A stretch of DNA of 43,408 bases from Prevotella sp. (GTDB taxonomy: Bacteria > Bacteroidota > Bacteroidia > Bacteroidales > Bacteroidaceae): contig JAFTGH010000038.1 in NCBI GenBank assembly GCA_017458005.1, positions 1 through 43,408 on the forward strand, written 5' to 3'. The notes below the pieces were generated by a model. The model was given only the letters and a program-made list of their open reading frames with translations. It was not told the DNA's origin and ran no database searches. The position numbers were made by a program, and so were the translations under genes. This document shows, in pieces, positions 22,186-42,137 of this stretch. Within the stretch, counting starts at the first letter, position 1, and the number at the start of each line of letters is the position of its first letter.

Positions 22186-22203
22186 AGAAAATCAGCAAAA
22201 AAC

Positions 22204-22245: not shown

Positions 22246-22276
22246 CACTCGCTTTTCGAAAGAACAGCGCACGATG

Positions 22277-22350
22277 GTGCCCGTAGTTCAGTTGGTTAGA
22301 GCGTCAGATTGTGGTTCTGAATGTCGACGGTTCGAGTCCGTCCGGGCACC
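22277..22350 (+). tRNA. tRNA-His (anticodon GTG)
   Basis: The 74-base gene folds into a full cloverleaf. Acceptor GTGCCCG/CGGGCAC, anticodon stem TCAGA/TCTGA around loop TTGTGGT, variable region ATGTC, T stem GACGG/CCGTC around TTCGAGT. The base after the acceptor is C, as expected at position 73 of tRNA-His, and a G precedes the acceptor for the extra G-1. CCA is not encoded. Its 3' half is the left copy of the island's direct repeat. Confidence 0.97.
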
Positions 22351-22353
22351 CAA
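22309..22353 (+). repeat. Left attachment-type repeat (in intact tRNA-His)
   Basis: This 45-bp copy runs from the anticodon loop to three bases past the tRNA. The first 18 bases are identical to 42006-42023, which marks the probable crossover core in the anticodon loop and stem. The only four differences from the right copy form two compensated T-stem pairs. Confidence 0.8.
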
Positions 22354-22356
22354 GAT

Positions 22357-22390
22357 AAAGGCTTGTAGGTCAAACACTTACAAGCCTTTT
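22357..22390 (+). terminator. Terminator of tRNA-His
   Basis: AAAGGCTTGTA (22357-22367) and TACAAGCCTTT (22379-22389) make a perfect 11-bp stem with an 11-base loop and a short T tail. By the island model this terminator came with the element, while the original one now lies at 42055. Confidence 0.8.
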
Positions 22391-22469
22391 CTGTTTCCTT
22401 TTTAGAACATAGTTTTAAGTTAAAATTAACTCAATTTCTGCTAAATTACTGTTAAATTGTATGCTTTTG

Positions 22470-22500
22470 GCGCAAAATCGCCGCAAAATCGCCGCAAAAA
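22470..22500 (+). repeat. Putative integrase arm-type sites, left end
   Basis: Three direct 11-bp units of the form CGCAAAATCGC follow each other, about 120-150 bp inside the left end of the island. A matching trio at 41914-41947 lies inside the right end in the same orientation. Such repeats flank cores of Bacteroidales tyrosine-recombinase elements; here the role is inferred from position. Confidence 0.6.
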
Positions 22501-22578
22501 TCCATTACCCTATTTTTATCCATTCCTAAGACATTTTTATGCCTATTTTATTTTCAAAAATGAATCTCATAACCAAAA

Positions 22579-22710
22579 ATGGAAACGAAAATTGTGAAGA
22601 CACGACATTCAGACGTGTATTCTGAATGTTGCGACACTCAGACCCTCCGTAAGCTTATTGATACAAATATTTCACTCGTGTCCACTAAAAATAAGCGGAG
22701 ATGTTTGTAG
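22579..22710 (+). CDS. Possible 43-residue fragment of an unrecognised gene
   Basis: An ATG-led frame encodes a mixed, protein-like sequence (METKIVKTRHSDVYSECCDT then LRKLIDTNISLV). The last eight residues come from the left end of the IS remnant at 22679, so any real gene was cut there. A hairpin lies inside it (CATTCAGA/TCTGAATG). I did not recognise a family. It lies where an integrase gene would be expected, but shows no integrase motif. It may equally be chance. Confidence 0.2.
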   Translation: METKIVKTRHSDVYSECCDTQTLRKLIDTNISLVSTKNKRRCL

Positions 22711-22937
22711 GTTACTTAAATATAGAGTTTTAGAGCGAAAAATTGACGATGACGATTTGAATTGACTACCTTTGCAATCCAGAAGCAAATTAGCCATTCG
22801 ATGAACACCGGAAAATATCTATTCGCCCAGTTCATAGAGTTCTTGCCGCAGAGTTTTTTTTGACGAATTGCAATGAAATACGAAGGGAACAAATACATGA
22901 AGCATTTCAAAGAACGCTTAGCGATTATTAGTGGACA
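22679..22937 (+). mobile_element. MITE-like remnant of an IS4-type insertion sequence
   Basis: The left end TGTCCACTAAAAAT at 22679 and the reverse complement of the right end, TGTCCACTAATAAT (22937-22924), match at 13 of 14 bases. Between them lie about 120 bases of leader with a TACCTTTG box and only the first ~36 codons of a transposase, so the middle of the IS is gone. This 259-bp internally deleted copy with both ends resembles a MITE. The right end contains the last codons and stop of the hybrid regulator gene. No target duplication was seen. Confidence 0.7.
22801..22910 (+). pseudogene. Broken N terminus of an IS4-like (DUF4372) transposase
   Basis: Translation gives MNTGKYLFAQFIEFLPQSFF, then a frameshift at a run of eight T, and in another frame KYEGNKYMKHF. 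This matches the N-terminal DUF4372 region of IS4-like DDE transposases of Bacteroidetes, which normally continue with a TCWNQL-type motif. The match ends after KHF, at the internal deletion. Not functional. Confidence 0.75.
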
Positions 22938-25900
22938 GCAATGTTATCAGAAAAAAGATACTCTTTGGGTAAAACTCCAAATTCCTTAGCAAAACTCCTT
23001 GAAAAATAAGAAGCACTACTGAAACCAACTTGATACATAACTTCAGAAACAGTGAATCTCTCTTGTTTCAAAAGAACCGCAGCTCTTTGTAACCGCTGCT
23101 TGCGAATAAAACTGACGGGGGTTTCACCTGTAAGCTGTTTAAGTTTACGATAAAGTTGTTTCTGATCCATACAAAGCAAGTCACACAACTTTGTAACGTT
23201 AAACTCTTCGGAATGCATGTTTGAGTTAATCAGGCTAATAATCCGTTCCATCAGTTCCTCGTCGTTGGATAATACTGGTGCGACATCCTTGACGGCCTGC
23301 ATACTTTCTATTCTTGTGTTCTGTTCTATGGCTTTTCTTTTGGTCAGTAACTGAACTATATGGAGCTGTAGCTTACGAAGGTCGAAGGGCTTGGGCATAA
23401 ACACATCAGCACCACTACGTATGCTTTTCAACTCGGTATTGGAGTCATCTTTTGCCGTCAGCATAATAATGGGAATCAACTCCGTGGAGTGATTATGACG
23501 AATGCGGTGACACAACTCGGTTCCATCGATTCCAGGCATCATCTGGTCTGTTATGATGATGTCTGGAATGCGTTCTTCGACGGTTTTCAAGGCTTGTTCG
23601 CCACTTAATGCAGTGATGCACTGATATGAGGTTTCCAAAGCTGTGGTTAGGAAATCAAGTATTTCGTGGTTGTCGTCGACTATCAATACTATCGGCTTTT
23701 CTGAAGTACCGTCTTTAATGTTTTTTTCCGTCACGACAGAAGTAAGAACATTCAAAGGTATTGAGAAAGTCACCTTCAGACCATTGTTATTCTCTGCCTT
23801 GACTTCTCCACCATGCAGTTCCACATACTTCTTGACTACTGATAAGCCAATGCCCGATCCATCACGGGAATTCTGTCCCATATAATATCGGTTGAACAGT
23901 TTTGGCAAATCACTATCAGACACCCCAGGGCCATTATCTTGCACCGACACAAGAACTTCGGATGCTCTTTTTTCCAATGAAACGAGTATCTTTCCTTTCT
24001 CATCGTCTGCATATTTCAGAGCATTTGACAAGATATTACGCATAACCATCTGTATCTTAACCACATCAACATCCATCAAAACAGACGTTTCTGTAGGCTG
24101 AAACACCATGCTTATATTGCGTTCCTTTGCCGATGTCTCAAATTCGCTAATACATCCTGAGATCAAGCTACACAAGTCGATATAGGAACTAAGAATCTGA
24201 GTTTCACCCTCAGCTTCAAGTTGCTTGAAGTCTAAGATGTGATGAATCAGGTCATTGAGCCGTGAGGCATTGTTCTGGATAGACTTCAGGCTATCCCTTA
24301 ACTTCGCATTTGAGGTTTCTGAAAGCAGTTTGCTTAGGGGAGCAATTATCAAGCTCAATGGAGTTTTCAGTTCATGTGACATGTTTACAAAGAAATCCAT
24401 TTTCTCTTGCGTCAATGCCATTACACGTTCGCGCTCACGTTGCTCAAACAGCGCATTCTCACGTCTTTTGTAGTAGTTTATCAAGTAATAAACAACAGAT
24501 AAGGCGATTAGTGTATAGACTACCCAAGCCCACCATCTGAAAAACCACGGATAAGGAACCTTTATAGTATATTTGCTAACAGATTCTTCTTTAAAGTCTG
24601 AATCCGTAGATAGATATATTTCATAACTTCCTCCTGATAGATGCGATAACAAAATACGGTTTGTTCCATTTGGCAGAGAATGCCATTCCCCATCTTCATT
24701 TATTTTATACCAAAACACTTCGGAACCCTTTCGGTTGTATGCAAAAGTGGACAAATCAAGCGCAATGTCCTCCCTGCCGTCCAGTGAAATATTATTTTCA
24801 AATCGGGGGACACAATCACTTATTGGAATTCCGCCAACCATGATGGAAGAAATGAACACCTTCGAAGGTTTGTCGCCAGAAGACGTTGTATTAAGGAATT
24901 GTTTACATATGAAATCCTCTCCACCCCATAAGATAGTATTATCTGAGGGGACATAAGAACCTGCAGTAAAATTGTAATTCGGTCTTACGTAGAAATGTAT
25001 GGTATTACCTGCTGTTTCAATATAGAATAGCCCATGGGAGGTAGACATCCATACTCTATTGTTATCATGAACAAAAGATTGAATCATGCCGTCTTTTACT
25101 TGGAAATCGGTTTCTTCCAGCCTGTCTGTCTGAGTGTCGTATTTGTAAAGTTTCCCCTGTACATCAATCCAAATAACATCATTTACAAGAATCATGTTGT
25201 CAATATACATCCGTTTTTTCAGAGTAACCTTACCCGAATTAGTATTGATGGAGGCCAACCCTTTACTGGTATTTGCCCACAACACGCCACTTTTATCGGG
25301 AATGAATCTGCAAATCGTGTTGACGATACTGTCCACATCATCAAACTGGTTATCTTTTAAAATGAACGATCCATTACCTGACAACAATGCAGTCTTGTCA
25401 ACGACATATAGACCACCCATATAGGTCGCTATCCATAACCGGTTCTTATTATCTTCATAGATGTCGTAGGCCCAATTAGCATTTCTGCCCTTCTGGTCGG
25501 ACAAGGAGAAATAGTCGAAGACATCACGCTGCCTGTTATACCTTGCTATGCTGGCATCTGTGGCAATCCATATCTCATGTTCACGATCCTCATAAATGCT
25601 CCTGATAATACTCTTTTTCAAGCCATTTCCCACTTTGAACCATTTATTGCCGTGGTCAGACAGGTGTAGTAAACCATTATCACCGCCCATCCACTTATCC
25701 CCTCTGGAGTCAACAAGAATATTACTAAAGACGTTACCGTCATTAGATTTTGAAATGATGGGAAGACTCGTTACCTCAAATAAGTTATCTTGTTTGGTTA
25801 AAGCCACTCCCCTGTCGGTAGCTACCCAGATGTTGTTCCCCTCGCAGAATATCTGATGAATCGAGTTGCTTGGCAACCCATATTGAGGTGTAGACGCATC

Positions 25901-26722
25901 ATGAGCGATGGTCTGCACAACACCAGTTTGAGGATTCAAGATTTTCAAGCCAAATTCAGAAGCTAACAGGATGTCGCCAGAAGGAGAAGGAACTATCTGA
26001 TTGAATGTACTACCAGATGCCACAACCTTTGTAGTCGAGTCCTTTACATTCTGGCAAAGCAAATGATGTTCCGTACCAATCCACAGATTACCATTTGGTC
26101 GATCATACCACAATGCATAAACATTATCATCTATCCCTAAATCAAATATACCCCCTTTGTTATCCAAACAAGCAAGTCCTCCATAATGTGCAACATACAA
26201 CCTGTCATTAACAGGTTCAATTGAATAGATAATATCATCCTTCCCGCTTGGAAGGGTGTACCGTTGCCATATTCTTTTATCTAAATCAAGACAGAACAAA
26301 CCATTTGACTTCGTTCCTACATATAAAACACCATTATCACATTTAAGTGAACGAACCTCTCCAATTTCTGGAACATCTCCAAATGGCGTAACAAACTGTT
26401 CTGTCCTCAGGTTTAGCCACCTAAGACCAGCATCTCCTCCAAGGCATAGGGTCTCTTCATCAACTATCAGAACAGCATAATAACTTCCTTCATATAGCCG
26501 TCGGATATTGTAGCCGTCATAAGAGAACAAACCACGTCTTGTAGCAAACCACATCATGCCCAGGCTGTCCTTGCAAACGCTCTCCACGACATTAGCATCG
26601 TATGGCAGCACTATCTTATCAAACTGCATCTGTTTGGTGTCAGACGCCGTTGATGCAGATGCCGACAAGAGGACAAATAATGCCATCATGCATCTGTTCA
26701 AATATAGTTTTACGCCATTCAT
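22928..26722 (-). CDS. Hybrid two-component system regulator of the galactan locus
   Basis: The 1264-residue one-protein sensor and activator has a signal peptide, a periplasmic sensor of about 700 residues made of two seven-bladed propellers of Reg_prop repeats (blades such as GNLWIGTEHHL, NNIWVATDRGVAL), a Y_Y_Y domain, and a membrane helix at about 730-750. Inside are HisKA (NMSHELKTP, His783), HATPase (DNGPGVSDSDL, GSGIGLSVVKKY), a receiver (Asp1059 in ITDQMMPG) and an AraC-type HTH at the C terminus (about 1150-1260). In Bacteroides such proteins bind oligosaccharides released from the target polysaccharide and switch on susCD. The ATG at 26722 is preferred to an upstream TTG that overlaps the -7-like TATTTTTG. 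The final AVH and stop lie in the IS end. Confidence 0.92.
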   Translation of the reverse strand: MNGVKLYLNRCMMALFVLLSASASTASDTKQMQFDKIVLPYDANVVESVCKDSLGMMWFATRRGLFSYDGYNIRRLYEGSYYAVLIVDEETLCLGGDAGLRWLNLRTEQFVTPFGDVPEIGEVRSLKCDNGVLYVGTKSNGLFCLDLDKRIWQRYTLPSGKDDIIYSIEPVNDRLYVAHYGGLACLDNKGGIFDLGIDDNVYALWYDRPNGNLWIGTEHHLLCQNVKDSTTKVVASGSTFNQIVPSPSGDILLASEFGLKILNPQTGVVQTIAHDASTPQYGLPSNSIHQIFCEGNNIWVATDRGVALTKQDNLFEVTSLPIISKSNDGNVFSNILVDSRGDKWMGGDNGLLHLSDHGNKWFKVGNGLKKSIIRSIYEDREHEIWIATDASIARYNRQRDVFDYFSLSDQKGRNANWAYDIYEDNKNRLWIATYMGGLYVVDKTALLSGNGSFILKDNQFDDVDSIVNTICRFIPDKSGVLWANTSKGLASINTNSGKVTLKKRMYIDNMILVNDVIWIDVQGKLYKYDTQTDRLEETDFQVKDGMIQSFVHDNNRVWMSTSHGLFYIETAGNTIHFYVRPNYNFTAGSYVPSDNTILWGGEDFICKQFLNTTSSGDKPSKVFISSIMVGGIPISDCVPRFENNISLDGREDIALDLSTFAYNRKGSEVFWYKINEDGEWHSLPNGTNRILLSHLSGGSYEIYLSTDSDFKEESVSKYTIKVPYPWFFRWWAWVVYTLIALSVVYYLINYYKRRENALFEQRERERVMALTQEKMDFFVNMSHELKTPLSLIIAPLSKLLSETSNAKLRDSLKSIQNNASRLNDLIHHILDFKQLEAEGETQILSSYIDLCSLISGCISEFETSAKERNISMVFQPTETSVLMDVDVVKIQMVMRNILSNALKYADDEKGKILVSLEKRASEVLVSVQDNGPGVSDSDLPKLFNRYYMGQNSRDGSGIGLSVVKKYVELHGGEVKAENNNGLKVTFSIPLNVLTSVVTEKNIKDGTSEKPIVLIVDDNHEILDFLTTALETSYQCITALSGEQALKTVEERIPDIIITDQMMPGIDGTELCHRIRHNHSTELIPIIMLTAKDDSNTELKSIRSGADVFMPKPFDLRKLQLHIVQLLTKRKAIEQNTRIESMQAVKDVAPVLSNDEELMERIISLINSNMHSEEFNVTKLCDLLCMDQKQLYRKLKQLTGETPVSFIRKQRLQRAAVLLKQERFTVSEVMYQVGFSSASYFSRSFAKEFGVLPKEYLFSDNIAVH

Positions 26723-26743
26723 GCTGCAAAAATACAAAAAAAA

Positions 26744-27757
26744 TCAGAACCCCCAGTCTTTATGCCAAATGATTTTTGGTTTGTCGCCTTCAAAAGTCAA
26801 TGGAAGCCATATATAGCGTGAATCTGGCAAATCTGTCTTCTTCCATCGATCAAACATGGCAACATATGTGTCTGGGCGACCAATGACAGGCTGAACGTAA
26901 GTACTTTGACCATAGAAGGTTTTGTCTGCTTCTTCACCTATACATGGATTCCCCAGTGATTTCCATTCTCCAAGCATAGAGTCTGCAACAGCTATATCAG
27001 CAACATTGGGATCCCATCCAGAGCAGCCAGATGTAAGCAGATAGTATTTCCCATGATGTTTGAATACAGCAGGAGCCTCACGATATTTCTTCTCGAAGTT
27101 CCGTGTGAAGGTCTTAGTAGGCTTCAGATAGTCGTCAGTCAATAAATGAATATACATTGTTGCATTGTCTTCTGACGAACATATCTGATATGCTTTTCCG
27201 TCGTCATCGACAAAAAGTGTCTGGTCGCGGCTCATTTCTCCGTTAGGTCTAAAACTATCCAAATAGGTGAATGGCCCCGTAGGAGTGTCTGATACTGCCA
27301 CCCCTGCACTGGCCTTGGAATAGTCGGCACTGTCGATGTGCATCCACATGACAAACTTCTTAGTTTTAGAATTATATATAACTTTAGGACGTTCCACAAC
27401 CTTTGAGGTGTGCAGGTCATGAAGCGAGTCAGTTTTTTCAGCTCCGAGGACAATTCCTTCGAAATGCCAATTAAGGAGGTCTTTTGAGGAGTAGCAACTT
27501 ACACCTGTTACTTCAGTACGGTAACACTCCCATGTTGCCCACTCCGGCAAGACGGTCTTGCCCTGTTTGTATTCTCCATACCAGTAATAGGTGCTGCCGT
27601 GGTAGAGCATTCCCCCGCCATGGGCGTTAATGACATTGTGTTCATCATCAAGCCAGACCTTTCCAGGGTTGAACCTAAAGTTTCTTTCCTGAGCAAAGCA
27701 AGGCTCAGCGATTATCAGTATGAATAACATAACAAGTTTTGTTTTCATAGATTTCAT
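26744..27757 (-). CDS. GH43 glycosidase, resembling exo-beta-1,3-galactanases
   Basis: The 337-residue protein has a signal peptide (cleavage near CFAQE) and a single five-bladed GH43 propeller. INAHGGGMLYHGSTYYWYGE occupies the place where typical GH43 enzymes keep the base Asp, so that residue seems missing. VERPKVIYN provides the likely general acid Glu and SRDQTLFVDDDGKAY the third carboxylate. These traits recall subfamily 24, the exo-beta-1,3-galactanases and their kin, but an arabinofuranosidase of a close subfamily is possible. It would act on arabinogalactan side or main chains. The start overlaps the GH2 stop by four bases, and the regulator follows 22 bases later. Confidence 0.75.
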   Translation of the reverse strand: MKSMKTKLVMLFILIIAEPCFAQERNFRFNPGKVWLDDEHNVINAHGGGMLYHGSTYYWYGEYKQGKTVLPEWATWECYRTEVTGVSCYSSKDLLNWHFEGIVLGAEKTDSLHDLHTSKVVERPKVIYNSKTKKFVMWMHIDSADYSKASAGVAVSDTPTGPFTYLDSFRPNGEMSRDQTLFVDDDGKAYQICSSEDNATMYIHLLTDDYLKPTKTFTRNFEKKYREAPAVFKHHGKYYLLTSGCSGWDPNVADIAVADSMLGEWKSLGNPCIGEEADKTFYGQSTYVQPVIGRPDTYVAMFDRWKKTDLPDSRYIWLPLTFEGDKPKIIWHKDWGF

Positions 27758-30195
27758 TGTATTGTTTTCAATGTAACAGTATTTAATATCTTCCGCTGCG
27801 AATCTCTTACCTTTAGTGTGAGGTTACCAGCCTTCTTGTCACTACGCACAACGACCACAAGCTGACCGCAGAACAACCTCATGGTAGGTTTCGTGAACGA
27901 TTCCAGACTGGTGGCATCGCCATTACAGACTGCCTCGAAACGACCTGCTCCAGACACCTCAAAGGTCAGACGGTCGTTGGCATCGGGTATAACAGTTCCC
28001 TTTGCATCGGTTAGTGAGACTGTAATAAAAGCGAGGTCTTCTCCATCTGCCTTCAGCCATTCGGCATCATGCTGTGTCCACACGTCAAGTTTCAACTTGG
28101 ATGGTTTCCCTGCTGTGCTGACAACCTGTTCGCCTGCTTGCTTTCCCTGCTCATCATAGACGACTACCTTCAGCTGGCCCGGTTCATACTTGACATCATT
28201 CCACCGCAAGCGGTAACGGTCAAGGCGCTCTTTCGGATTCTTACTGATTTTACCCTGACTCTTGCCATTGACAAACAGCTCGGCTGTAGGATAATCGGTA
28301 TAGCAATAGACAGGCGTCACCTGTCCACGGCGTTGTTTACCCCAAGTCCAGTGAGGCAGCAAGTGGATGGTGTGGTCTTCCTTCTGCCACTTTGAACGAT
28401 ACAGATAATATCTGTCCTTAGGCAGTCCGGCCAGATCGCATATACCAAAGTACGAACTGCGCGACGGCCAGTACTCATCGTAGGGCGAAGGCTCACCAAG
28501 ATAGTCATATCCTGTCCATACAAACTCGCCAATGACCCAGTCCTTGTCATCCTGCCATACCCAATCGTCATCGGGCAAATTAGACCAAGAACAATACTGC
28601 ACGTCATAACTGGAGCACTGCCCGTTGTAATGGTGCTTGCGGAGTTCTGACGATTCCGTGTCAACGGCTTCAGCGACAACAGGGAACTGATATACGCCAC
28701 GACTGCTGACGGTAGATGCCGTCTCGGATCCCAAGAGGAATCCTTGCGGAAGTTTCTCGATATTATTCTGATACTTATGAACACGGTAGTTGAATCCAGG
28801 TACTTCCATAGTCTGGGCGAAGCCACTGCTCAAAGCTGCATCGGCCCTGTCCATACCCTGGGTAACAGGTCGGGAGGGGTCCAGCGCATGGCAGAGGCCT
28901 TGCAGACGGACGGCTATTTGCCGACCCTCCTCGCTCCATTGTTCAGGAATCTCATTGCCTATAGACCACATGACAATACTCGGATGGTTGCGATTGGCTA
29001 ACACCAAGTTGGTTATGTCCTTGTCGCTCCATTCTCTGAAAAAGCGTGCATAGCCGTTCTTGCACTTTGGATATATCCACATATCGAAGCTTTCTGCCAT
29101 CACCATCATACCCAAAGAGTCACAAATATCCATCTGCCACTGACTCGGCATATTGTGCGCTGTGCGAATAGCATCACAGCCCATCTGCTTCATCATCTTT
29201 ATCTGACGGATAAGTGCGGCCTTATTGACAGCAGCACCCAAAGGCCCCAAGTCATGATGCAGGCAAACACCTTTCAGTTTGCGTGTCTGTCCATTCAGCT
29301 GGAAACCCTTTTCACGGGTTACCCGTATGGTGCGGATGCCCGTTTTGATGCACTTCTCATCGACAACCTTACCTTTCCTGTCAGTAATAGTGGTTATCAG
29401 GTTATAAAGATATGGAGTCTCTGGTGTCCACAATTTAGCATCTTCCACATTGAGAGTCGTGTGGAAACTTCCATCATCATTGATATGAATTTCTCTGTTT
29501 GTAACAGCAGAATGATCATCAGGAGAGACTAAAGCCACATTTGCAAATACGTTATGATCTGGTTTTAACACCCTGCCTTCTACCTCCAAGATAGCATTGC
29601 CATTTTTCTGGCTAACAGTTCGTATATAAATGCTCCAATCGTCGAGATGTGTTTGCTGTGTCAATAAAAGCGTAACAGGACGGTAGATTCCTGCTCCTGG
29701 GTACCACCGGCTACTCTCCTCTACATTTTTAAGGTCTACTTCAAGCAGGTTATCACCTTTCTTGACGAATGGTGTTATATCCACTCGGAAGGCGTTATAT
29801 CCATAAGCCCAGTAACCCGCTTGCTGTCCATTGACGGACACAACAGGTTCTGCCATTGCCCCGTCGAAAATCAATTCTGCATGCTCGTAGCTAGATGGTA
29901 TAGTCAGCATACGGCGATAATGCCCATCTCCGATCCATGGCAAAGCACCTGAACGCCCACTTTTCTCGGTAGCCTCAGTCTCTCCGTTCTGTTCAATAGC
30001 GACCTCCTGAAGGTCCCATTTCTTGTCGAAGGGACCAGCTATGGCCCAGTCGTGTGGAATACTCACATTCTGCCAGGTCTTCTTGTCCTGAGAGAATTGC
30101 CAGTCATCGGTCAGCGTTATCTCTTGTCTTACCTGAGCCGATGCAATAACCGTTACCGTTGCCGTAAGAAAAGCAACTAATAGTCCTTTCTTCAA
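27754..30195 (-). CDS. GH2 beta-galactosidase, periplasmic
   Basis: The 813-residue enzyme has a signal peptide (MKKGLLVAFLTATVTVIASA), the sugar-binding jelly roll (DDWQFSQDKKTWQNVSIPHDW), an Ig-like domain and the TIM barrel (about 300-600), then C-terminal DUF4982-like and Ig-like domains. The acid/base Glu415 lies in MWSIGNEIPEQ and the nucleophile Glu557 in VIGEFVWTGYDYLGEP. It should free galactose from the ends of galactan oligosaccharides in the periplasm. The plan fits GH2 enzymes of Bacteroidetes galactan loci. It lies three bases after the nucleotidyltransferase gene and overlaps the GH43 start. Confidence 0.9.
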   Translation of the reverse strand: MKKGLLVAFLTATVTVIASAQVRQEITLTDDWQFSQDKKTWQNVSIPHDWAIAGPFDKKWDLQEVAIEQNGETEATEKSGRSGALPWIGDGHYRRMLTIPSSYEHAELIFDGAMAEPVVSVNGQQAGYWAYGYNAFRVDITPFVKKGDNLLEVDLKNVEESSRWYPGAGIYRPVTLLLTQQTHLDDWSIYIRTVSQKNGNAILEVEGRVLKPDHNVFANVALVSPDDHSAVTNREIHINDDGSFHTTLNVEDAKLWTPETPYLYNLITTITDRKGKVVDEKCIKTGIRTIRVTREKGFQLNGQTRKLKGVCLHHDLGPLGAAVNKAALIRQIKMMKQMGCDAIRTAHNMPSQWQMDICDSLGMMVMAESFDMWIYPKCKNGYARFFREWSDKDITNLVLANRNHPSIVMWSIGNEIPEQWSEEGRQIAVRLQGLCHALDPSRPVTQGMDRADAALSSGFAQTMEVPGFNYRVHKYQNNIEKLPQGFLLGSETASTVSSRGVYQFPVVAEAVDTESSELRKHHYNGQCSSYDVQYCSWSNLPDDDWVWQDDKDWVIGEFVWTGYDYLGEPSPYDEYWPSRSSYFGICDLAGLPKDRYYLYRSKWQKEDHTIHLLPHWTWGKQRRGQVTPVYCYTDYPTAELFVNGKSQGKISKNPKERLDRYRLRWNDVKYEPGQLKVVVYDEQGKQAGEQVVSTAGKPSKLKLDVWTQHDAEWLKADGEDLAFITVSLTDAKGTVIPDANDRLTFEVSGAGRFEAVCNGDATSLESFTKPTMRLFCGQLVVVVRSDKKAGNLTLKVRDSQRKILNTVTLKTIQ

Positions 30196-30198
30196 ATG

Positions 30199-31110: not shown

Positions 31111-31117
31111 ATTTTGT

Positions 31118-32146: not shown

Positions 32147-32147
32147 T

Positions 32148-33317: not shown

Positions 33318-33448
33318 AACTTCAAATTTTAAAAGTTCTTAAAATGGAAGGCACGGTACCTTATCCGAGCATTCCTTCGTTTTTTGCGAAATCCTTACCG
33401 ACAATTCTATTTACTTAAGTGTCAACAAATAATTACTAACTAATATAA

Positions 33449-34495: not shown

Positions 34496-34508
34496 AATCT
34501 TCTCATTT

Positions 34509-36215
34509 TTATTCTGTTAACGAATAGGTACATTTACATAAATCAACGGTGAGGGTATATGTCTTCCCACTTTCCCAACCAACAGGATTGCCGTCGTTCT
34601 TCTTAGTCCAACGGAGAGAACCATCACTGCAGGTGCCGAACCAGTAGTCCCATGAACCGTTAAGCAAAATCTGTGCGCCCCATGGTGTATCACCTGTAGC
34701 GGTTACCTGAGCGGTATAAACACCGGGCTGACCTTCAACGGCTGTCATGTCGGTTAGATTCCAGTCATCATTGAAGCCCGTATAGGATACCTGCGTGATA
34801 GGATCGGCCATGCCATACCAGTACGACATCCAACCAAGTGAGGCGATAGTGACATACAAGCCCTTGCCAGGTGCCTGGATGTTGTTGTCGTCAGTGCCGC
34901 CAATAATCAGTTTCCATTCAGATGTACTTGGATCCTGGTTGACGTGTGTCCAGTCATCCTTTGCCTGTGAGAAGTAGTAACCCCATGAGCAGTTGAAGTT
35001 GACGGCAGCTGCATAGCAGAGATTATCCTCATCGTAAAGGGTAAGATACTGGTCGAAGTTCCATGTATCGTCATTACCAAGGATATAGAGAATCTGCGGA
35101 ATCTCAGTTGGAGTATCACTGCCTTCAGTCACCTCACATTTCCATTCCTTCGGGTTAGAGAGGTCGATTGACAAGGTTACATCTCCTGCTGACGGAATGT
35201 TCACTGTGATATTTGAAGCAGTCTCACCAAAGGTTAGTTCACCATTCTCATATCCAAATGCAACAGGTGTGTCAATGGCAGCTGCATCATCCGTACCAGT
35301 GGCATAGTTGTATTGCTTACCAGTGCCTGCTATTTGGATAGTAACAGAACCAGCCTGAGAGGCCTGATAGGCAAGTGTCCACTTGTTTGCCTTGCGGTCG
35401 TAGGTCATCTCGCCAGTTATGTCACCGCTGACTGTCAGCGACGGGATATAGAGAGCCGACCACTCCTGACGGACTGTATTGACAATAGTATAGTAACAGC
35501 CCGACTGTCCCGGATACCAGAAGTTCCAGTGCTGGTCATTGCTGCTGATGACGAAAGGTTTACCACCGCCATCATCGCCAATATTACCCCATAGCACTCC
35601 ATTACCTTCTTGCAACCACCAGTTGTACCAGCCGCCCACACCGAGGAATCCGCTGTAAACTCCGTCTGAGTTTGGAGATGCCAACGTATTACCAGTATCA
35701 GCACGGCTTGCATCAAGAACGAATCCAATAGTCATATCGATGCTATATGGTGTTACCTGAATCTGGTAGATATTACTGTACTGGGGATCTACATTATTTG
35801 CCAATACAGAACGCATACGGATATATAATGTGGACGCTACATCACTCTCCAGACCAACTCGTCCCACAAGGGAGTTCAGATATTCAGCAGTAAACTGCAT
35901 AGAAGTAGTACCAGTCTCTGTCAGAATCTCGATAGGAGCATCGAACGTGCTCGTATTTGCGAACTGGAGCGTGTTGACTGTCGTTCCGATAGGAGTCTGC
36001 ACACGTTCGTCATTGGTCGTCAGACGACTGTTGTCAGTCCAATTAAGGGTCAAAGCCAGTCCTGTGGCATAATCTTTGTTGATGACGACATCACCGGAGC
36101 CACTAAGCACAACAGGCTGAGCACCTGATGTGGTGATGGTGTCACCGTCTTTGTTGCATGCAGTAAAAAGCATGACAGCAAAAAGCGATGCTATGATATA
36201 TTTTATCTGTTTCAT
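34509..36215 (-). CDS. SusE-like surface glycan-binding lipoprotein
   Basis: With the ATG at 36215 the protein has 568 residues and a clean lipoprotein signal peptide (MKQIKYIIASLFAVMLFTAC). A longer start seven codons upstream overlaps susD and lengthens the signal. The N-terminal part is a SusE-type Ig-like domain (VLSGSGDVVINKDYA to IQVTPYSI). Two or three beta-sandwich, tryptophan-rich modules follow, such as GVGGWYNWWLQEG and LGWMSYWYGMADP, and a final SusF/SusE-like domain with LNGSWDYWFGTC. Exposed Trp and Tyr suggest glycan binding at the surface to feed SusCD. In other galactan loci this place holds a DUF5114-type binding protein. Confidence 0.82.
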   Translation of the reverse strand: MKQIKYIIASLFAVMLFTACNKDGDTITTSGAQPVVLSGSGDVVINKDYATGLALTLNWTDNSRLTTNDERVQTPIGTTVNTLQFANTSTFDAPIEILTETGTTSMQFTAEYLNSLVGRVGLESDVASTLYIRMRSVLANNVDPQYSNIYQIQVTPYSIDMTIGFVLDASRADTGNTLASPNSDGVYSGFLGVGGWYNWWLQEGNGVLWGNIGDDGGGKPFVISSNDQHWNFWYPGQSGCYYTIVNTVRQEWSALYIPSLTVSGDITGEMTYDRKANKWTLAYQASQAGSVTIQIAGTGKQYNYATGTDDAAAIDTPVAFGYENGELTFGETASNITVNIPSAGDVTLSIDLSNPKEWKCEVTEGSDTPTEIPQILYILGNDDTWNFDQYLTLYDEDNLCYAAAVNFNCSWGYYFSQAKDDWTHVNQDPSTSEWKLIIGGTDDNNIQAPGKGLYVTIASLGWMSYWYGMADPITQVSYTGFNDDWNLTDMTAVEGQPGVYTAQVTATGDTPWGAQILLNGSWDYWFGTCSDGSLRWTKKNDGNPVGWESGKTYTLTVDLCKCTYSLTE

Positions 36216-36222
36216 AAGGTTA

Positions 36223-37800
36223 TCAATAGTTTTCATTCTTCAAATTCGGATTTGCTGAAAGTTCTGCTGTAGGAATGGGATAAACGTTATACTTACTTTC
36301 CGTTGCACGACCATCAACAACACCACCCTTCCATTGCCATTTATAAGAACCACCGGTAAACTGACCAAAACGGATAAGATCAGTACGGCGACAACTCTCC
36401 CAATAGAGTTCACGAGCACGTTCGTCAAGGATAAACTGCAAAGTAAACTGTGCTTCGTTAATGTTACCATCAGCAGTGCCGAAAGCACGCTCACGCAATT
36501 TATTTACTAATTGTAATGCCTCATCACGGGTAGCACCAGTTCCGCCACGCAATACGCTCTCCGCCAGCATCAAATATACATCAGCCAAACGGAATACGGG
36601 ATAATCGATGTCTGCACCTACGGCACCAGTATTAGATGCTGCCTCTCCGGCATCTGTCAAGTTAGAGAACTTCTCTCCAAAGAATCCCTGACTTTGGTCG
36701 TCAATAGCTTTTGTAAGCCACTGCTCCTGACCGTCAGTATAGAACATATAACGGCTGTCACTTGTTTCGCTTCCAGAGAACATATTAGGCAGTTCACCAC
36801 GTACACGGAACATTCCCCATCCACCTGTCAGACCATACTTCGCAGGATCCTGAGAACTGGAGTTGCCACACTCACCGCAAACGATATAGGTGGTAGCTCC
36901 CCATGATACCGTATTTACTGCATCTACTATGAATGGGAAAATAATCTCATTAGTGCGCTTGTCATTGTCAGCATTGAACAATTTACTGTAATCAGACTCT
37001 AATGAATAGCCAGCACTCATAATCTGTTTGCAATAGGTAATACAGTCCGTATAATGGTTCCCTGCATGATAAACTTCAGCATTCAGATATAACTTGGCGA
37101 GCAATGCCCATGCTGCAGCCTGAGATGCGCGTCCATACTCTACCTCATTGGGAGCGAGCAGGCCATTAGTCGCAATATCCTTCAGTTCATTTTCTATAAA
37201 TGTAAAGAGCTGACTGTTACTATAGCATTCTGGTGTATAAGCTCCTACTCCCATCGTTTCATCTACAAAAGGACCTTTGCCAAATAAATCCAATACGTAG
37301 TAGTATGCCAAAGCACGCAAGAAACGGGCTTCTGCCCTATAGGCAGTCAAGTTTGCATTGCCGGAAACACTTTCTGCCGTGGCATGACCAAGAAACTCAT
37401 TACATAGAGCGATGGTATAGTATGCCCTATAGTATGTGTCAGCAACCCAAGGATCATTGGCATCCCAAGTCATATAGGTCAATCCTTCTATCTTATCGCC
37501 TGAAAGCCATGTTCCAGCCATCTCGTCCGTAGGAGCTTCTTGTAGGTTAAAGTAACCTCTCAGGAAATCATGACCATTATTGCTCGAAATATCTGCATTA
37601 CCACCGCCTTGCTCTTGACCCACTATGACATATGAGGCATAAAGCTTGGCCAAAGCCATTTTATAACCTTGCTCTGAGCCATAAACTACATCTGCGGTAG
37701 TCTGACTGTCTGTCTGGGGCTGTTGGTCCAGGTCGCCTGTGCAAGACATCAGTCCACAGGCTGTAAATAGTATTAAATATATCTTTTTCATATTGCTCAT
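36223..37800 (-). CDS. SusD/RagB-family surface glycan-binding lipoprotein
   Basis: The 525-residue lid protein has a lipoprotein signal (MKKIYLILFTACGLMSCTGD; a start three codons later at 37791 is equally plausible). It has the SusD hallmarks: N-terminal DLDQQPQT, helical TPR-like parts (AEARFLRALAYYYVLDLFG, AAAWALLAKLYLNAEVY) and the C-terminal LDERARELYWESCRRTDLIRFGQ. It covers the SusC barrel and traps oligosaccharides. It begins four bases after the susC stop and ends seven bases before the SusE-like start. The length is normal. Confidence 0.95.
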   Translation of the reverse strand: MSNMKKIYLILFTACGLMSCTGDLDQQPQTDSQTTADVVYGSEQGYKMALAKLYASYVIVGQEQGGGNADISSNNGHDFLRGYFNLQEAPTDEMAGTWLSGDKIEGLTYMTWDANDPWVADTYYRAYYTIALCNEFLGHATAESVSGNANLTAYRAEARFLRALAYYYVLDLFGKGPFVDETMGVGAYTPECYSNSQLFTFIENELKDIATNGLLAPNEVEYGRASQAAAWALLAKLYLNAEVYHAGNHYTDCITYCKQIMSAGYSLESDYSKLFNADNDKRTNEIIFPFIVDAVNTVSWGATTYIVCGECGNSSSQDPAKYGLTGGWGMFRVRGELPNMFSGSETSDSRYMFYTDGQEQWLTKAIDDQSQGFFGEKFSNLTDAGEAASNTGAVGADIDYPVFRLADVYLMLAESVLRGGTGATRDEALQLVNKLRERAFGTADGNINEAQFTLQFILDERARELYWESCRRTDLIRFGQFTGGSYKWQWKGGVVDGRATESKYNVYPIPTAELSANPNLKNENY

Positions 37801-37804
37801 ATTT

Positions 37805-40777
37805 TTAGAAATCAAGACCAATGGTAAGTGAATAGATCCGTGGACGTGGATAAACAGTCATGTCGATACCACCTTGATTCTCTGGATCTACGCCCTTGTA
37901 ATTGGTAATAGTAAAGACATTCTGAACCATCAAAGAAGCATTCATGGAGAACCACTTACATACTTGTCCGAAATTGTAAGAGAGTTGGATATTGTCCATT
38001 TTAAGGAAAGAAGCATTCTCCACATAATGGTCACTCTCATGCTGACGTTTCTGAAAACGTGTAGTCATATAGCTGTTGTTCAGACGGTTCAGTTGATAGT
38101 CATTATATGACATGGTTTCCCAAGCTCCTGTATTCATAGCCATACCATTGTAGAGGTAGTTGCCCACGTTTGCACGGAGTGAAGTGCTCAGCGTCAGTTT
38201 TTTCCAGCGTAGAGAGGTAGAAAAACCGAAAATCCAGTCAGGAGCAGGAGAGTGATAGTGGTAGAGGTCATTGGAATCGACCACACCATCACCGTTGAGG
38301 TCTGCATAAAGACCTTCGATGGGCATTCCTTTCTCATCATAAATCTGCTTATATACATAGTAACTGTATGGGGCATACCCTTCTGATAGTACCTGAACAT
38401 AGTGTGACTCGATGGCACCAGCCGGGGTGTTTGGCGATTCTGCTAAGTCGTTCAAACGGAGATTTGTAATTTCGGTCTTCTGATAGGTTGCATTAGCACT
38501 CATATTCCACTCCCAATTTTCTTTTTTAATGGGTGTGGCAGAAATAGACACCTCAACACCTTTGCTTTTGATATTTCCGACATTACTCAGCATCTGCTTG
38601 TTGAAGTTTGTGCCTGCTGCAACAGGAACCGTTGCCAACAAATCCTCTGTCTTACGATTGTAATAGTCAAACGAACCTGTAACTCGGTCACCAATGATAC
38701 CAAAATCAAAACCGAAGTTCCAGGCCTTAGTAGTTTCCCATTTCAGATTGCTATTATAGGCTGCTGGGCGATAAGTGTGTATGGGGGTACCGCCAAACAT
38801 ATAGTAGGCACCACTTTGGCTTTCAGTATACAGTGGTAAATAGCTATAGTTAGCAATACCATCTTGCTGACCAGTCACACCAAAACTTGCACGTAGTTTT
38901 AAACTATTGAAAATAGGTTTCAGTCCTTTGAAGAAACCTTCCTCTGACACTCTCCATCCTAAAGCCACAGACGGGAACGAGCCCCAACGGTTATCCTTGC
39001 TGAAACGTGAAGAACCATCTCGGCGAATGCTGGCTGACAATAGGTACTTGCCATCATAGCTATAGTTCAATCGTCCATAATAAGAGAGCAAAACATGTCG
39101 CTGGTCATCAGCAGCCGATGCAGCCTGCTGCTCTGCGGGAGTCATGTCGTTCAATTCCAAATAGGCAGCATTAGTGTATTTCCAGAACTGATAGTCATAA
39201 CCTGCCGTTATCTCAATATTACTCTTGATACTTTCTATATACTTATTATAATTGAGGTAGAATGTTAGCAGGCGGTTGTTGTTTTTCTGCGGACCGTATG
39301 TGTAGTTACGTCCACCTGTATTATAATACTGATATGCTTCTTTTGGTACATAGATCTTACCCTTTCCCTTAGAGTAGTCGTAACCTAAGGTAAGATGGGC
39401 GTGCAAGTCAGGAAGGAAGTGCATACTATAGTCTGCATCGAAACTTCCCACAAAACGATACACATCACTTGTCGAACTATAGTTGTTCAATAGCCCTACA
39501 GGGTTGCCTGTAGCACCGGTAATGGGTACTCCATTGGCATCAGCAGCCTCATAATAGCCGAGGAAGGCGTCTGTTCCGGAATAAATAGGAGAACAGGGAT
39601 TGTGAGTAGCACCGCCCCAAATGGCATTCGTATTGGCAAAACGGGTGTCGCTGTATGTACCTTTCAGGTTGATGTTCAGTTTCAGATGGTTGTCAAACAG
39701 TGTAGGTGTCAGTGAAAGGCTACCTGTATAACGTTTCATATTATCTGTTTTCAGAATACCATTTTGATTGCTATATCCAAAAGACAGGCGATAGGGTAGA
39801 AAATTGGATATTTTGCCTGAGATTCCTAGGTTATTGTCTGTTCCAAAAGCTGTTCGGAATATTTCGTCATTCCAGTCGGTATTCACATTGTCATTAAGTA
39901 GCGACTTCTGACGGTCTGTTCCGTATGTGTTCACCAAATTATACATATCATTACGACTAATCATATCCGCAGTCTTTGTACGAGTCTGTAGCGAATTGGT
40001 CGTCGAGAAACTGATTCTGGGCCTATTTGAGTCAGTTCCTTTTTTTGTCGTAATGATGATAACACCATTAGACGCGCGCGAACCATAGATAGCAGTAGAA
40101 GATGCATCCTTCAGAATGGTCATGCTCTCAATATCGTTCGGGTTAATCAAACTCAGGAAGTTTCCGCTACCACTGACACTGCCTCCCACTTCCATAGGAA
40201 CACCGTCAAGAACAATCAGCGGGTCATTGGAGGCATTCAGCGAAGCACCTCCACGAATACGGATGGTGCTGCCCGCTGACGGTGAGCCGCCACCATTGAC
40301 AATCTGCACACCGCTTACCTTACCATTAATCAATTGTTCGGGTGAATTGATGACACCCTGATTAAAGTCCTTACTGCTCACGTTTGAGACGGAACCTGTC
40401 AGGTCACTCTTACGTTGCACACCATATCCGATGACCACCGTCTCTTGCAACACGGTTTCATCAGACTCCAAACGAACCGTCAGTTTCCCTGATGCAGGGA
40501 TGTTGACGGTCTTCGTCTTGTAACCAACATACGAAACTTGGATAGCTGTTGCTTTGCTGCTTACTTCCAGTTGGAAGTTGCCATCGAAGTCCGTAATCAC
40601 TCCTTTTGCGCTCCCTGATTCGGTGACTGTAGCACCAATCAGTGCCTCACCAGTCTCGTCGATAACTGTTCCTGTCACCTTTTTGGCATTCTGAGCCAGA
40701 ACAGATGCAGGAAGGAACATCAACAAGAACATTAGGCACCATGAACGCATCAATGTTTTCGTCTGTTTGAACTTCAT
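37805..40777 (-). CDS. SusC/RagA-family TonB-dependent outer-membrane transporter
   Basis: The 990-residue protein takes up galactan oligosaccharides across the outer membrane with energy from TonB. After the signal peptide (ending LPASVLAQ) come the carboxypeptidase-like domain (VTGTVIDETGEALIGATV), the TonB box region (ETVVIGYGVQRKSDLTGSV), the plug (VSGVQIVNGGGSPSAGSTIR, MTILKDASSTAIYGSRASNG) and a 22-strand barrel ending in an aromatic residue (LTIGLDF). The ATG at 40777 is preferred because a longer frame crosses the 5' leader. It is the first gene of the operon behind the promoter at 40808-40838. Confidence 0.95.
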   Translation of the reverse strand: MKFKQTKTLMRSWCLMFLLMFLPASVLAQNAKKVTGTVIDETGEALIGATVTESGSAKGVITDFDGNFQLEVSSKATAIQVSYVGYKTKTVNIPASGKLTVRLESDETVLQETVVIGYGVQRKSDLTGSVSNVSSKDFNQGVINSPEQLINGKVSGVQIVNGGGSPSAGSTIRIRGGASLNASNDPLIVLDGVPMEVGGSVSGSGNFLSLINPNDIESMTILKDASSTAIYGSRASNGVIIITTKKGTDSNRPRISFSTTNSLQTRTKTADMISRNDMYNLVNTYGTDRQKSLLNDNVNTDWNDEIFRTAFGTDNNLGISGKISNFLPYRLSFGYSNQNGILKTDNMKRYTGSLSLTPTLFDNHLKLNINLKGTYSDTRFANTNAIWGGATHNPCSPIYSGTDAFLGYYEAADANGVPITGATGNPVGLLNNYSSTSDVYRFVGSFDADYSMHFLPDLHAHLTLGYDYSKGKGKIYVPKEAYQYYNTGGRNYTYGPQKNNNRLLTFYLNYNKYIESIKSNIEITAGYDYQFWKYTNAAYLELNDMTPAEQQAASAADDQRHVLLSYYGRLNYSYDGKYLLSASIRRDGSSRFSKDNRWGSFPSVALGWRVSEEGFFKGLKPIFNSLKLRASFGVTGQQDGIANYSYLPLYTESQSGAYYMFGGTPIHTYRPAAYNSNLKWETTKAWNFGFDFGIIGDRVTGSFDYYNRKTEDLLATVPVAAGTNFNKQMLSNVGNIKSKGVEVSISATPIKKENWEWNMSANATYQKTEITNLRLNDLAESPNTPAGAIESHYVQVLSEGYAPYSYYVYKQIYDEKGMPIEGLYADLNGDGVVDSNDLYHYHSPAPDWIFGFSTSLRWKKLTLSTSLRANVGNYLYNGMAMNTGAWETMSYNDYQLNRLNNSYMTTRFQKRQHESDHYVENASFLKMDNIQLSYNFGQVCKWFSMNASLMVQNVFTITNYKGVDPENQGGIDMTVYPRPRIYSLTIGLDF

Positions 40778-40807
40778 ATTTTTAGGTTTAAAAAATGTTA
40801 TTGGCTG

Positions 40808-40838
40808 CAAAATTAGTTCAAATTACCCTATATACAAA
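40808..40838 (-). promoter_or_regulatory. Promoter of the susC-susD-susE-GH53 operon
   Basis: On the minus strand TTTG (40838-40835), 19 bases, TAATTTTG (40815-40808), then 30 bases to the ATG. The -33/-7 spacing is right. The hybrid regulator's target would be expected upstream of it, in 40839-40906, which is A+T-rich and holds TTTGTCC/TTTGTCT near-repeats. Confidence 0.75.
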
Positions 40839-40906
40839 AAACAAATCAGACAAAACTTTGCCCATTTTGGACAAACTAATAATCTATAGTATATAATTAA
40901 TCTTTA

Positions 40907-40961
40907 CCAACAATATGGAGATACCAGCCACACAGGTCGCTCTCCTTCTAAATATTGTTGG
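40907..40961. repeat. 10-bp inverted repeat with 35-base loop
   Basis: CCAACAATAT (40907-40916) is the exact reverse complement of 40952-40961. A second inner stem GGAGA/TCTCC is possible. It lies between the DUF6169 stop and the susC promoter. It could be a terminator of the DUF6169 unit, although the T tail is poor, or a regulator site. Confidence 0.45.
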
Positions 40962-41085
40962 CGCGTAGAGCTCTTCTTTTATGGGTACATAAACTGACGA
41001 TTTCAACCTGTTGCAACTCATCAATTGTGAGCACATTGTATCTGCTTAAAGTGCTGAAATTGCCTCTAAAAAAGACGTAAGAAGA

Positions 41086-41592
41086 TTATTTATCTCTTGG
41101 TGTATACAATTGTGGCACATGTTTCAAGAAGTCCTGGTAGTATGAGAGAATCATATCGTGCAATGGATGATCGTGACGCATAAGAATTCCTGCATAGTAG
41201 TTAACCTTCTTGAATGTGACAGAATCGCTGTATAGGGTCATTTCATGGCTACGGGCATAATCGTAGAACCAAAGATGGTAGAGACGGTCGCGAGCTGCCT
41301 GACGATGGTCGGTAGAGTCACAGATATAGAGCATGACTGTAGGCTCCTGACTGAAGAATTCTTCCAAAATGACGGTCACTACATCAAGAATCTTGGGATC
41401 ATACGATCCATGTTCATGCTCACTATTGTCTATGAAAAAATGATAGGCACCATCATCCATAAAGATAGTGTCTTTATAAAAGCCTACAATATAATGAATA
41501 TCCTGATCGGTAACAAAACGAAAAGTAAACTCACCCAACTGACTTAACTTGTAGGGTGAGCGCTGGTTTAGTATGTCTGCAGAAAGTGTCAT
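41086..41592 (-). CDS. DUF6169-like hypothetical protein
   Basis: The 168-residue soluble protein has no signal peptide. The segments FRFVTDQDIHYIVGFYKD, VVTVILEEFFSQEPTVMLYI and CDSTDHRQAARDRLYHLWF match a Bacteroidales family annotated as DUF6169, of unknown function. Its ATG overlaps the stop of a 42-residue reading frame (ATGA), so the pair should be translated together. It lies inside the island beside susC but reads from its own promoter, and no tie to galactan use is seen. Such small pairs often behave like toxin-antitoxin or phage-defence genes; that is a guess. Confidence 0.65.
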   Translation of the reverse strand: MTLSADILNQRSPYKLSQLGEFTFRFVTDQDIHYIVGFYKDTIFMDDGAYHFFIDNSEHEHGSYDPKILDVVTVILEEFFSQEPTVMLYICDSTDHRQAARDRLYHLWFYDYARSHEMTLYSDSVTFKKVNYYAGILMRHDHPLHDMILSYYQDFLKHVPQLYTPRDK

Positions 41593-41717
41593 TGTGCGAT
41601 CTGGGCCTCCTGCTCACGTACTTGTTCGCGCCATTTTTCACGAGCATCTATCATCTGCTGGAAAGCTTCAGCATACTGCTCAGGGCTGTCGTAGCGTTTA
41701 AATTTGTTTTGCTCCAT
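41589..41717 (-). CDS. Small 42-residue protein coupled to DUF6169
   Basis: A short ATG frame encodes MEQNKFKRYDSPEQYAEAFQ and then a charged helix (MIDAREKWREQVREQEAQ). Codon-like composition, a -7 box 28 bases upstream and the ATGA overlap with the next gene all favour a real gene. It is predicted as one or two amphipathic helices. The family is not known to me. Confidence 0.65.
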   Translation of the reverse strand: MEQNKFKRYDSPEQYAEAFQQMIDAREKWREQVREQEAQIAQ

Positions 41718-41744
41718 AATCCATTTAATTGATGATCTCGGCTG

Positions 41745-41802
41745 CAAAGATACAAAAAGTTTTAGAAAGTTATACGCATTTACAACTTTTTTTATATCTT
41801 TG
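41745..41802. promoter_or_regulatory. Divergent -7 boxes ahead of the small gene pair
   Basis: CAAAGATA at 41745-41752 (TATCTTTG on the minus strand) serves the 41717 gene. A mirror TATCTTTG lies at 41795-41802 on the plus strand, with similar A/T-rich arms, about 200 bp before the right island end. Only a 30-codon frame (41831-41923) of doubtful reality follows on the plus strand. Confidence 0.55.
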
Positions 41803-41913
41803 CAATCAGATTGAATAATAGTTCGTCTTTATGATGACTATTATAGGTTCAAGCGTGAATCTTCTATTCTGCATTAGCAGATTTCGAGAATTATTGAAAA
41901 AGAATCGGTCCTT

Positions 41914-41947
41914 GCGTAAATAGCCGCAAAATAGCCGCAAACAAAAA
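41914..41947 (+). repeat. Putative integrase arm-type sites, right end
   Basis: Three direct units GCGTAAATA, GCCGCAAAATA and GCCGCAAACA lie about 60-95 bp inside the right end of the island. They match the trio at 22470-22500 in sequence, 11-bp period and orientation. Confidence 0.6.
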
Positions 41948-42005
41948 ATCGAAAATTGCGGAAACACCGATGAATACAGGGTTTATGAGACATTCGCAAG
42001 TCTGC

Positions 42006-42050
42006 TTGTGGTTCTGAATGTCGTGGGTTCGAGTCCCACCGGGCACCCAA
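42006..42050 (+). repeat. Displaced 3' half of tRNA-His (right attachment-type repeat)
   Basis: The sequence holds anticodon-loop to 3'-end of a tRNA-His: TTGTGGTTCTGAATGTCG, T stem GTGGG/CCCAC around TTCGAGT, acceptor strand CGGGCAC. The 5' half (acceptor 5' strand and D arm) is missing, so it is not a tRNA gene. It differs from the intact gene only at two T-stem pairs, both compensated. Confidence 0.85.
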
Positions 42051-42054
42051 AAGG

Positions 42055-42083: not shown

Positions 42084-42101
42084 GTGAGAGGATGCGAACA
42101 G

Positions 42102-42131: not shown

Positions 42132-42137
42132 GTGAGA

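Follow-up and report, generated by a model that had tools for sequence, protein, structure and literature searches.

A galactan utilization island at tRNA-His in Prevotella with both attachment sites and no detected integrase, probably moved in trans

We analyzed a complete contig of 43,408 bp (C8, the window below) from a Prevotella assembly of 3.05 Mb in 66 contigs that is 92% complete (GCA_017458005.1). Within it lies a tRNA-His island with 19.7 kb of cargo, mainly a galactan polysaccharide utilization locus (PUL). Judged from sequence, it is most likely (probability about 0.74) a non-autonomous island resembling a cis-mobilizable element (CIME), which a Phage_int_SAM_5-type tyrosine integrase moves in trans. 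The island keeps core sites and arm-type repeats at both ends, in register with those of elements that carry an integrase, and an island with nearly the same cargo but different ends occurs at tRNA-His of another species. Among named genomes (best 80 of 558), relatives of the contig's genes are chiefly Prevotella and Prevotellaceae.

Boundaries and attachment sites of the island

The window contains a single tRNA, a tRNA-His(gtg) called by ARAGORN at the left end of the island, and the 3' half of the same tRNA recurs at the right end (Table 1), which confirms the layout given in the initial annotation. The direct repeat reported there as 45 bp is real, although it is not a perfect 45 bp but rather 45 identical positions in 51 nt (22303-22353 and 42000-42050). 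Two of the six mismatches lie by the left edge (AGA vs TGC). The other four are in the T-stem, where two pairs are altered on both sides of the stem and pairing is kept: ACGG..CCGT on the left (type A) and TGGG..CCCA on the right (type B). Both T-arm types are present in whole tRNA-His genes of relatives. The TTGTGGT cores begin at 22309 and 42006 and are thus separated by 19,697 bp. A regenerated target gene at one end and a displaced fragment at the other are the attL and attR expected of a CIME or a tRNA genomic island. The GC content falls from ~0.50-0.53 to ~0.40-0.42 at tRNA-His, and is back near 0.5 across much of 28-33 kb. The terminator-like repeats right of the half tRNA are probably native flank, because related terminators stand directly 3' of tRNA-His in several relatives. 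Since the contig stops at 43408, the right flank is known for only ~1.36 kb.

Both ends keep CGCAAA arm repeats at 11-bp spacing. The arm pattern GCCGCAAAATNGCCGCAAA has two occurrences, at 22480 and 41923, within the contig and equally across the whole assembly, against none in 100 shuffles. Arms are also 11 bp apart in most of the integrase-bearing loci fetched from comparison genomes. The distances from the starts of the right arms to the core, 81 and 70 bp, are the same in this island, in genome G190 (with an extra arm at 57), and in an integrase-bearing element at tRNA-Arg(ccg) of G344. After adding the one-base offset of the search word, the same distances hold for right ends in G327 (contigs C58 and C15), G197, G081, and G277, the exceptions being G316 and G327 C50, which are off by 2 bp, and G352, which has one arm only. 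For the left arms, the distance to the core is 160-184 bp in seven islands; among the integrase-bearing elements measured it ranges over 143-323 bp, with most values at 155-220. Because the arms are in register with those of integrase-bearing elements at both ends, the attachment sites look complete, the integrase itself aside.

Table 1. Features of the tRNA-His island and its borders (positions in the 43,408-bp window)
Feature	Position	Strand	Remarks
Intact tRNA-His(gtg), left end (attL)	22277-22351	+	core loop TTGTGGT 22309-22315; T-arm type A
Left end module L1	22352-22604		terminator-like hairpin, arms
Three 11-bp left arm-type repeats	22467-22499	+	TTGGCGCAAAA, TCGCCGCAAAA twice; 162-184 bp from core
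Palindrome, 25 bp	22605-22629		ACATTCAGA-CGTGTAT-TCTGAATGT; marks the left switch from end module to cargo; candidate for an internal core site of a recombinase
Remnant resembling an IS4/DUF4372-type insertion sequence	22672-22946		reading by eye only
Hybrid two-component system (HTCS) regulator	22928-26737	-	
GH43	26744-27757	-	solved relatives deposited as beta-glucanase (6eug, 6euf) and galactan 1,3-beta-galactosidase (7bys)
GH2, beta-galactosidase-like	27754-30195	-	best NCBIfam model GalB, under its cut-off
Nucleotidyltransferase-like protein	30199-31251	-	structure match 3pnn; true start probably near residue 47
UDP-glucose 4-epimerase GalE	31118-32254	-	true start probably near residue 39
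Galactokinase GalK	32148-33317	-	
GH53 endo-beta-1,4-galactanase	33449-34495	-	
SusE-like protein	34509-36236	-	SusE, DUF5111, DUF5114
SusD-like protein	36223-37821	-	
SusC/RagA TonB-linked outer-membrane receptor	37805-40810	-	
DUF6169 protein, right-hand cargo gene	41086-41592	-	region recurs beside the right ends of G327 C58 and G197; G190 has a truncated version
Conserved promoter-like patch	41739-41811		right junction of cargo and end module
Right end module R1	41812-41999		98% identical in G327 C58
Two 11-bp right arm-type repeats	41921-41942	+	TAGCCGCAAAA; 81 and 70 bp from core
tRNA-His 3' half, right end (attR)	42000-42050	+	core loop 42006-42012; T-arm type B
Terminator-like repeat, two copies	42054-42130	+	right of half tRNA

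Integrase: absence from the island and presence in relatives

The initial annotation saw no integrase on the island, and this was borne out. The tyrosine recombinase domain PF00589 has 11 matches in the genome, none of them on C8. A Pfam scan of 19 open reading frames (ORFs) of the contig, small ORFs lying outside the scan, found no integrase, relaxase, or conjugation domain. A profile of the integrase family described next matched nothing in the 43,408-bp contig, and at E 1e-40 the family had no match in the whole assembly. Among the ORFs scanned, the island thus has no integrase or transfer genes inside, as in a CIME or a tRNA island; it has neither the integrase gene beside attL or attR that marks an integrative element nor the conjugation module of a PUL-bearing integrative and conjugative element (ICE).

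Members of this integrase family, which was first met directly after tRNA-His in G031, occur in 42 of 299 genomes (E 1e-40 or better). The tRNA-His core stands beside the integrase in 12 of 30 loci fetched, one of them with an unusual 5' part, and many others adjoin the ends of other tRNAs. The G344 integrase matches PF13102. In the integrase-bearing elements, the integrase match starts ~280-380 bp from the core. A search seeded with integrases of the island's own genome had given one weak match only, and the family profile was used instead. The initial annotation had proposed searching for integrases in elements with matching ends; the search yielded a family with the same arm register, but with no match in the island's own genome. 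The profile also found no match in island stretches with the same kinds of ends in G190, G034, G082, G197, G081, and three in G327, several of which are short or partial. Since most comparison genomes are fragmented, the absence of an integrase from any one partial stretch is weak evidence.

Based on these comparisons, we propose the following mechanism. A core and a set of arm sites at each end delimit the 19.7 kb cargo. Recombination would be catalyzed in trans by a Phage_int_SAM_5-type tyrosine integrase from another element; in relatives, integrases of this type are found next to arms of the same kind, immediately interior to tRNA-His or tRNA-Arg(ccg). The crossover would take place within the 7-bp anticodon loop TTGTGGT. 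In that case, the rebuilt tRNA would owe its 3' half (T-arm A) to the incoming island, and the resident 3' half (T-arm B) would be pushed to the right together with its terminator. Islands could in addition trade cargo, in or close to the palindrome and the right patch.

No helper phage could be named, as the palindrome is absent from the viral contigs searched and relatives of the G344 integrase are partial (two in viral contigs) or, in 10 phage and 3 plasmid records, all below 60% identity. One viral contig carries the core and a tRNA-His-like end. A gene conserved behind tRNA-His was also sought as a marker of the native right flank, among ORFs of at least 120 aa in the fetched stretches, and was not obtained, since no protein group but the integrase family reached at least three other loci. 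The compact G344 element at tRNA-Arg(ccg) (locus L281, G344:C8:48500-68400) has defence-like cargo (ApeA, N6 methylase, AAA_15/21, RhuM). At positions 3477-4676 of L276 (G316:C127), a half tRNA-His is followed by an integrase-bearing end with a broken integrase, which makes tandem elements at one tRNA.

The same cargo with different ends in other species

At E 1e-50, SusCD DNA of this kind turned up in 26 of 398 congeneric genomes, a count that includes the island's own genome. One of them, G190, has the same island at its own tRNA-His on a 318 kb contig, with a half tRNA on the right. The initial annotation had named the same locus at the same place without the repeat as a finding that would speak against it; in G190 the repeat is present. 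When 22600-33399 is compared with G190 in 400-bp segments, identity reaches 97% or more in 23 of 27 (99% or more in 20 of these), whereas in the remaining four (25400-26199 and 32200-32999) it is 80-88%. The backbone block is only 70-71% identical to G190, and it is on a different G190 contig, so the neighbourhood of the tRNA differs between the two species. A cargo mostly at 97-100% in genomes whose backbone is at 70-71% requires recent movement. The divergent patches fall in the HTCS sensor part and galK, a pattern of mosaic recombination. The G190 cargo is decayed, and GH53, SusE, SusD, and most of SusC are lost.

The ends of the G190 island differ from those of the island studied here: identity is 78% over the aligned 54% of 22200-22599, and 72% over the aligned 62% of 41800-42199. 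The left switch is at 22601, and the right switch comes after the conserved promoter-like patch. The end modules are also found with other cargo. Left module L1 occurs in this way in G082, G216, and G324, with a variant in G050, and L2 in G034; right module R1 occurs in G327 C58, R2 in G197, G081, and G327 C15, and an R1/R2 hybrid in G277. A second cargo type behaves similarly: G034 (L2) and G324 (L1) are 91% identical in cargo versus 73% in their left ends, with the switch at the palindrome, and G050 opens with the same cargo sequence. The best reading of these sequences is that cargo has been exchanged between islands with different ends. This would be a third route beside decay and movement in trans, the two that the initial annotation had considered.

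Among named genomes (best 80 of 558), more than 5 kb aligned in two, bacterium P3 (L160, ~86%) and L161, which is the G279 contig itself; none of the 80 has the tRNA-His core. The G279 PUL, which is near tRNA-Lys, was considered as an island and rejected, as it has no arms and its far side has only a 14-bp tRNA-Lys match in 60 kb. It looks like an ordinary locus.

Target site and T-arm type

The initial annotation suggested looking for an empty tRNA-His site in related genomes. A clean one in a close strain was not found among the relatives examined. G360 (94% identical over 2.5 kb of backbone and 85% over another part; 7% contamination) resembles the contig as far as the tRNA and slightly beyond it; its T-arm is of type B, and no PUL stands at this place. 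In addition, 165 bp of the island's right flank (88%) lie ~1.4 kb beyond its tRNA; because other sequence stands between the two, the site does not count as cleanly empty. The tRNA-His of G019 is of type B, like the island's right half, and is followed within a few bases by a terminator related to that at 42054, and G315 has a similar terminator behind a damaged tRNA-His.

The comparison of T-arm types covered 67 distinct sites; the 5' part of the tRNA is intact in 53 of them and not in the other 14. The type agrees with the downstream end in 16 of 17 pairs whose ends are at least 85% alike (8.6 expected), in 24 of 28 at 80% (14.1 expected), and in 33 of 44 at 75% (22.2 expected), the pairs being non-independent. 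We read this to mean that the 3' half of the tRNA usually arrives with the element, and that exceptions exist. Neither a role of the T-arm type as a plain species marker nor its strict linkage to the end sequence was borne out.

In G315 (L244 and L284; G315:C199) the tRNA lacks most of its 5' half and stands beside an apparent secG end, which is either true damage or an assembly error. Near ~115-240 of L075 (G085), a type A tRNA-His and a native-type terminator are followed by a 15-base remnant of a type B tRNA 3' end, the scar of an earlier event. Further direct-repeat pairs just behind tRNA-His (L288 of G360, L048, L049, L054, and L061; GATGGAACATTGATGGAAC and TTGTAGGCACATTGTAGGCAC) suggest more types of element using tRNA-His.

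A palindrome at the left switch point

The palindrome that separates the left end module from the cargo has the form of a tyrosine recombinase core site, that is, inverted half-sites around a spacer of 6-8 bp, here 7 bp. Its half-site TCTGAATGT is also the stretch immediately 3' of the 7-nt anticodon loop of tRNA-His, and is thus shared with the tRNA core. When up to three mismatches and any 7-base spacer are allowed, the motif matches twice on the contig, at the palindrome and at the tRNA core, against 0.01 expected. Across 2.9 Mb of fetched loci, overlapping and selected with this question in mind, TTCAGA-N5..9-TCTGAA is confined to six islands of this kind. The strict motif is present in 12 of 338 genomes. 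Seven of these have the spacer CGTGTAT or TGTGTAT, at eight places, seven of which are ~300-440 bp from a tRNA-His core. Among the others, three share one coding-like sequence, that of G219 also looks coding, and that of G075 is a terminator-like hairpin with spacer TTGTGGT. The G075 hairpin (L297 near 1500; G075:C4:77036) has ~19 bases identical to the tRNA-His core and is located away from tRNA-His.

Alternative explanations

How the cargo is switched can be explained in two ways. The palindrome could be a second, internal site served by the same integrase system, with CGTGTAT as a separate 7-bp overlap, for exchange of the whole cargo behind a fixed attachment module; we regard this as possible but somewhat doubtful. 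Alternatively, with odds that we put a little short of even, cargo is moved by homologous recombination between resident tRNA-His islands at short conserved patches, with no recombinase acting at the palindrome. Both switch points are at such patches, the palindrome with ~45 bp on the left and the promoter-like patch on the right, and the mosaic blocks of 80-88% identity inside the cargo indicate that this process occurs here. It is less easily reconciled with the eight palindromes with this type of spacer, whose flanks vary on both sides, and with G216, in which the likeness ends at the right arm of the palindrome. Nor does it readily predict G324, where two palindromes in direct orientation, 57.6 kb apart, have 40 bases identical by eye, as would fit a site-specific event; the segment between them contains one distant integrase-family match. 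Overall, homologous recombination over short shared patches accounts for the switching about as well as a site-specific role does. If the palindrome is indeed such a site, these islands would form a modular platform at tRNA genes, in which arm-bearing ends and variable cargo, PULs included, are mixed across species by a recombinase that is not carried.

The island as a whole might instead be a decayed relic: autonomous at first, it would have lost the integrase when that part was deleted or the cargo replaced, and would now be fixed in place, so that its likenesses to other islands reflect descent and old transfers. The ORFs scanned contain no integrase or transfer domain, the G190 copy is itself decaying, and the integrase of the bearing elements begins at roughly the place that the palindrome takes in the islands. 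A relic is nevertheless unlikely, because arms and core are in register at both ends in several species, and because the near-identity of most of the cargo between species with so divergent a backbone points to recent movement. Far less probable still is a chance duplication of the half tRNA, unrelated to a PUL that would be simply an ordinary chromosomal locus. The related PULs of G279 and bacterium P3 do lie at places without arms or a half tRNA-His; yet here arms are present at both ends, G190 has the same architecture in a different chromosomal neighbourhood, and 8 of 299 genomes hold half tRNAs that resemble the right end and are accompanied by arms or related sequence, ten in all (the damaged tRNA of G315 excluded). 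Between decay of a larger element and movement in trans, which the initial annotation left side by side, the latter fits better, given the register of arms and core with integrase-bearing elements and the related islands without an integrase-family match.

Several observations weigh against movement in trans as proposed here. G324 has a distant integrase-family match (1.5e-12) ~7 kb inside its island, and in G316 a second element, with a broken integrase, follows the half tRNA. Many of the islands used for comparison are cut off by a contig end. Neither excision, nor a circle, nor a helper integrase was seen, in an assembly 92% complete. The T-arm data also contain discordant cases: G085, G023, and G020 have type A tRNA-His beside native-type terminators, and the ends of G190 (B) and G034 (A) are 96% alike, while G360 (B) resembles ends that carry A. 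At 70% likeness, agreement between T-arm and end (54 of 93 non-independent pairs, 46.7 expected) shows no clear excess. Because G035 and G037, the next-closest genomes by backbone, have T-arm A, the ancestral type at this site is uncertain.

Relation to known mobile elements

Known examples of CIMEs come mostly from Streptococcus and Streptomyces. As in CIMEs (defined in PMC5704250), the island keeps attL and attR, no integrase or transfer genes were found on it, and elements stand in tandem at one tRNA in G316. It differs in that several related islands examined lack an integrase-family match, the arms are in register, and ends and cargo are reassorted; its mobilization is putative. The tRNA islands catalogued by Islander (PMC4383910) have the same end marks, a regenerated tRNA and a displaced fragment, but are integrated by tyrosine integrases, and the island here carries none. 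Tycheposons (PMC10872708) are likewise tRNA-proximal cargo islands with metabolic genes; those described carry a tyrosine recombinase, unlike the present island. In gut Bacteroides, PULs travel on ICEs, for which a tRNA is named as a target (PMC8845570). The PUL here is also on a presumably mobile unit, although a compact one without conjugation genes or integrase, and this unit shares its attachment arms with small integrase elements such as that of G344, unlike the PUL-bearing ICEs.

We found no literature on integrase-less or tRNA-His islands in Prevotella, in a search that left most subscription journals outside. How PULs travel between gut Bacteroidota without adjoining mobility genes is an unsettled question, and most of the variable regions in PMC8845570 were found without mobile-DNA functions. 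The island offers a testable route, in which integrase-less islands with complete attachment sites borrow an integrase and may swap cargo at a candidate internal site. Searches for the arm motif and the half-site palindrome can locate islands of this type in other genomes.

Cargo genes and neighbouring features

The galactan PUL recognized in the initial annotation is confirmed by Pfam, NCBIfam, and PDB matches: the main genes, all on the minus strand, include a SusC/SusD pair, galactan-active enzymes, and a regulator. The description of the cargo as nothing but a catabolic system was slightly too strong, since the DUF6169 gene is also present, along with the insertion sequence remnant read by eye. 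No GalT was seen among the ORFs scanned, and the nucleotidyltransferase-like protein may replace it. The galactan PUL of B. thetaiotaomicron comprises HTCS, SusCDE, GH53, and GH2 genes. Compared with it, the island adds GH43, GalK, GalE, and the nucleotidyltransferase-like gene, and sits at a tRNA. A second relative of the PUL is present in the same genome (L112 on contig C59, 3856-16156). It is 70-78% identical, lacks the GH2-to-GalK block, and is shared with G360 (98% and 85%).

Just beyond the right repeat, at the contig end, a Mpi-type master DNA invertase is encoded at 42778-43389 (above the NCBIfam cut-off). It was set aside as the mover of the island, being a serine recombinase that lies past the right repeat and matches a model named for DNA inversion, and it may belong to a neighbouring element.

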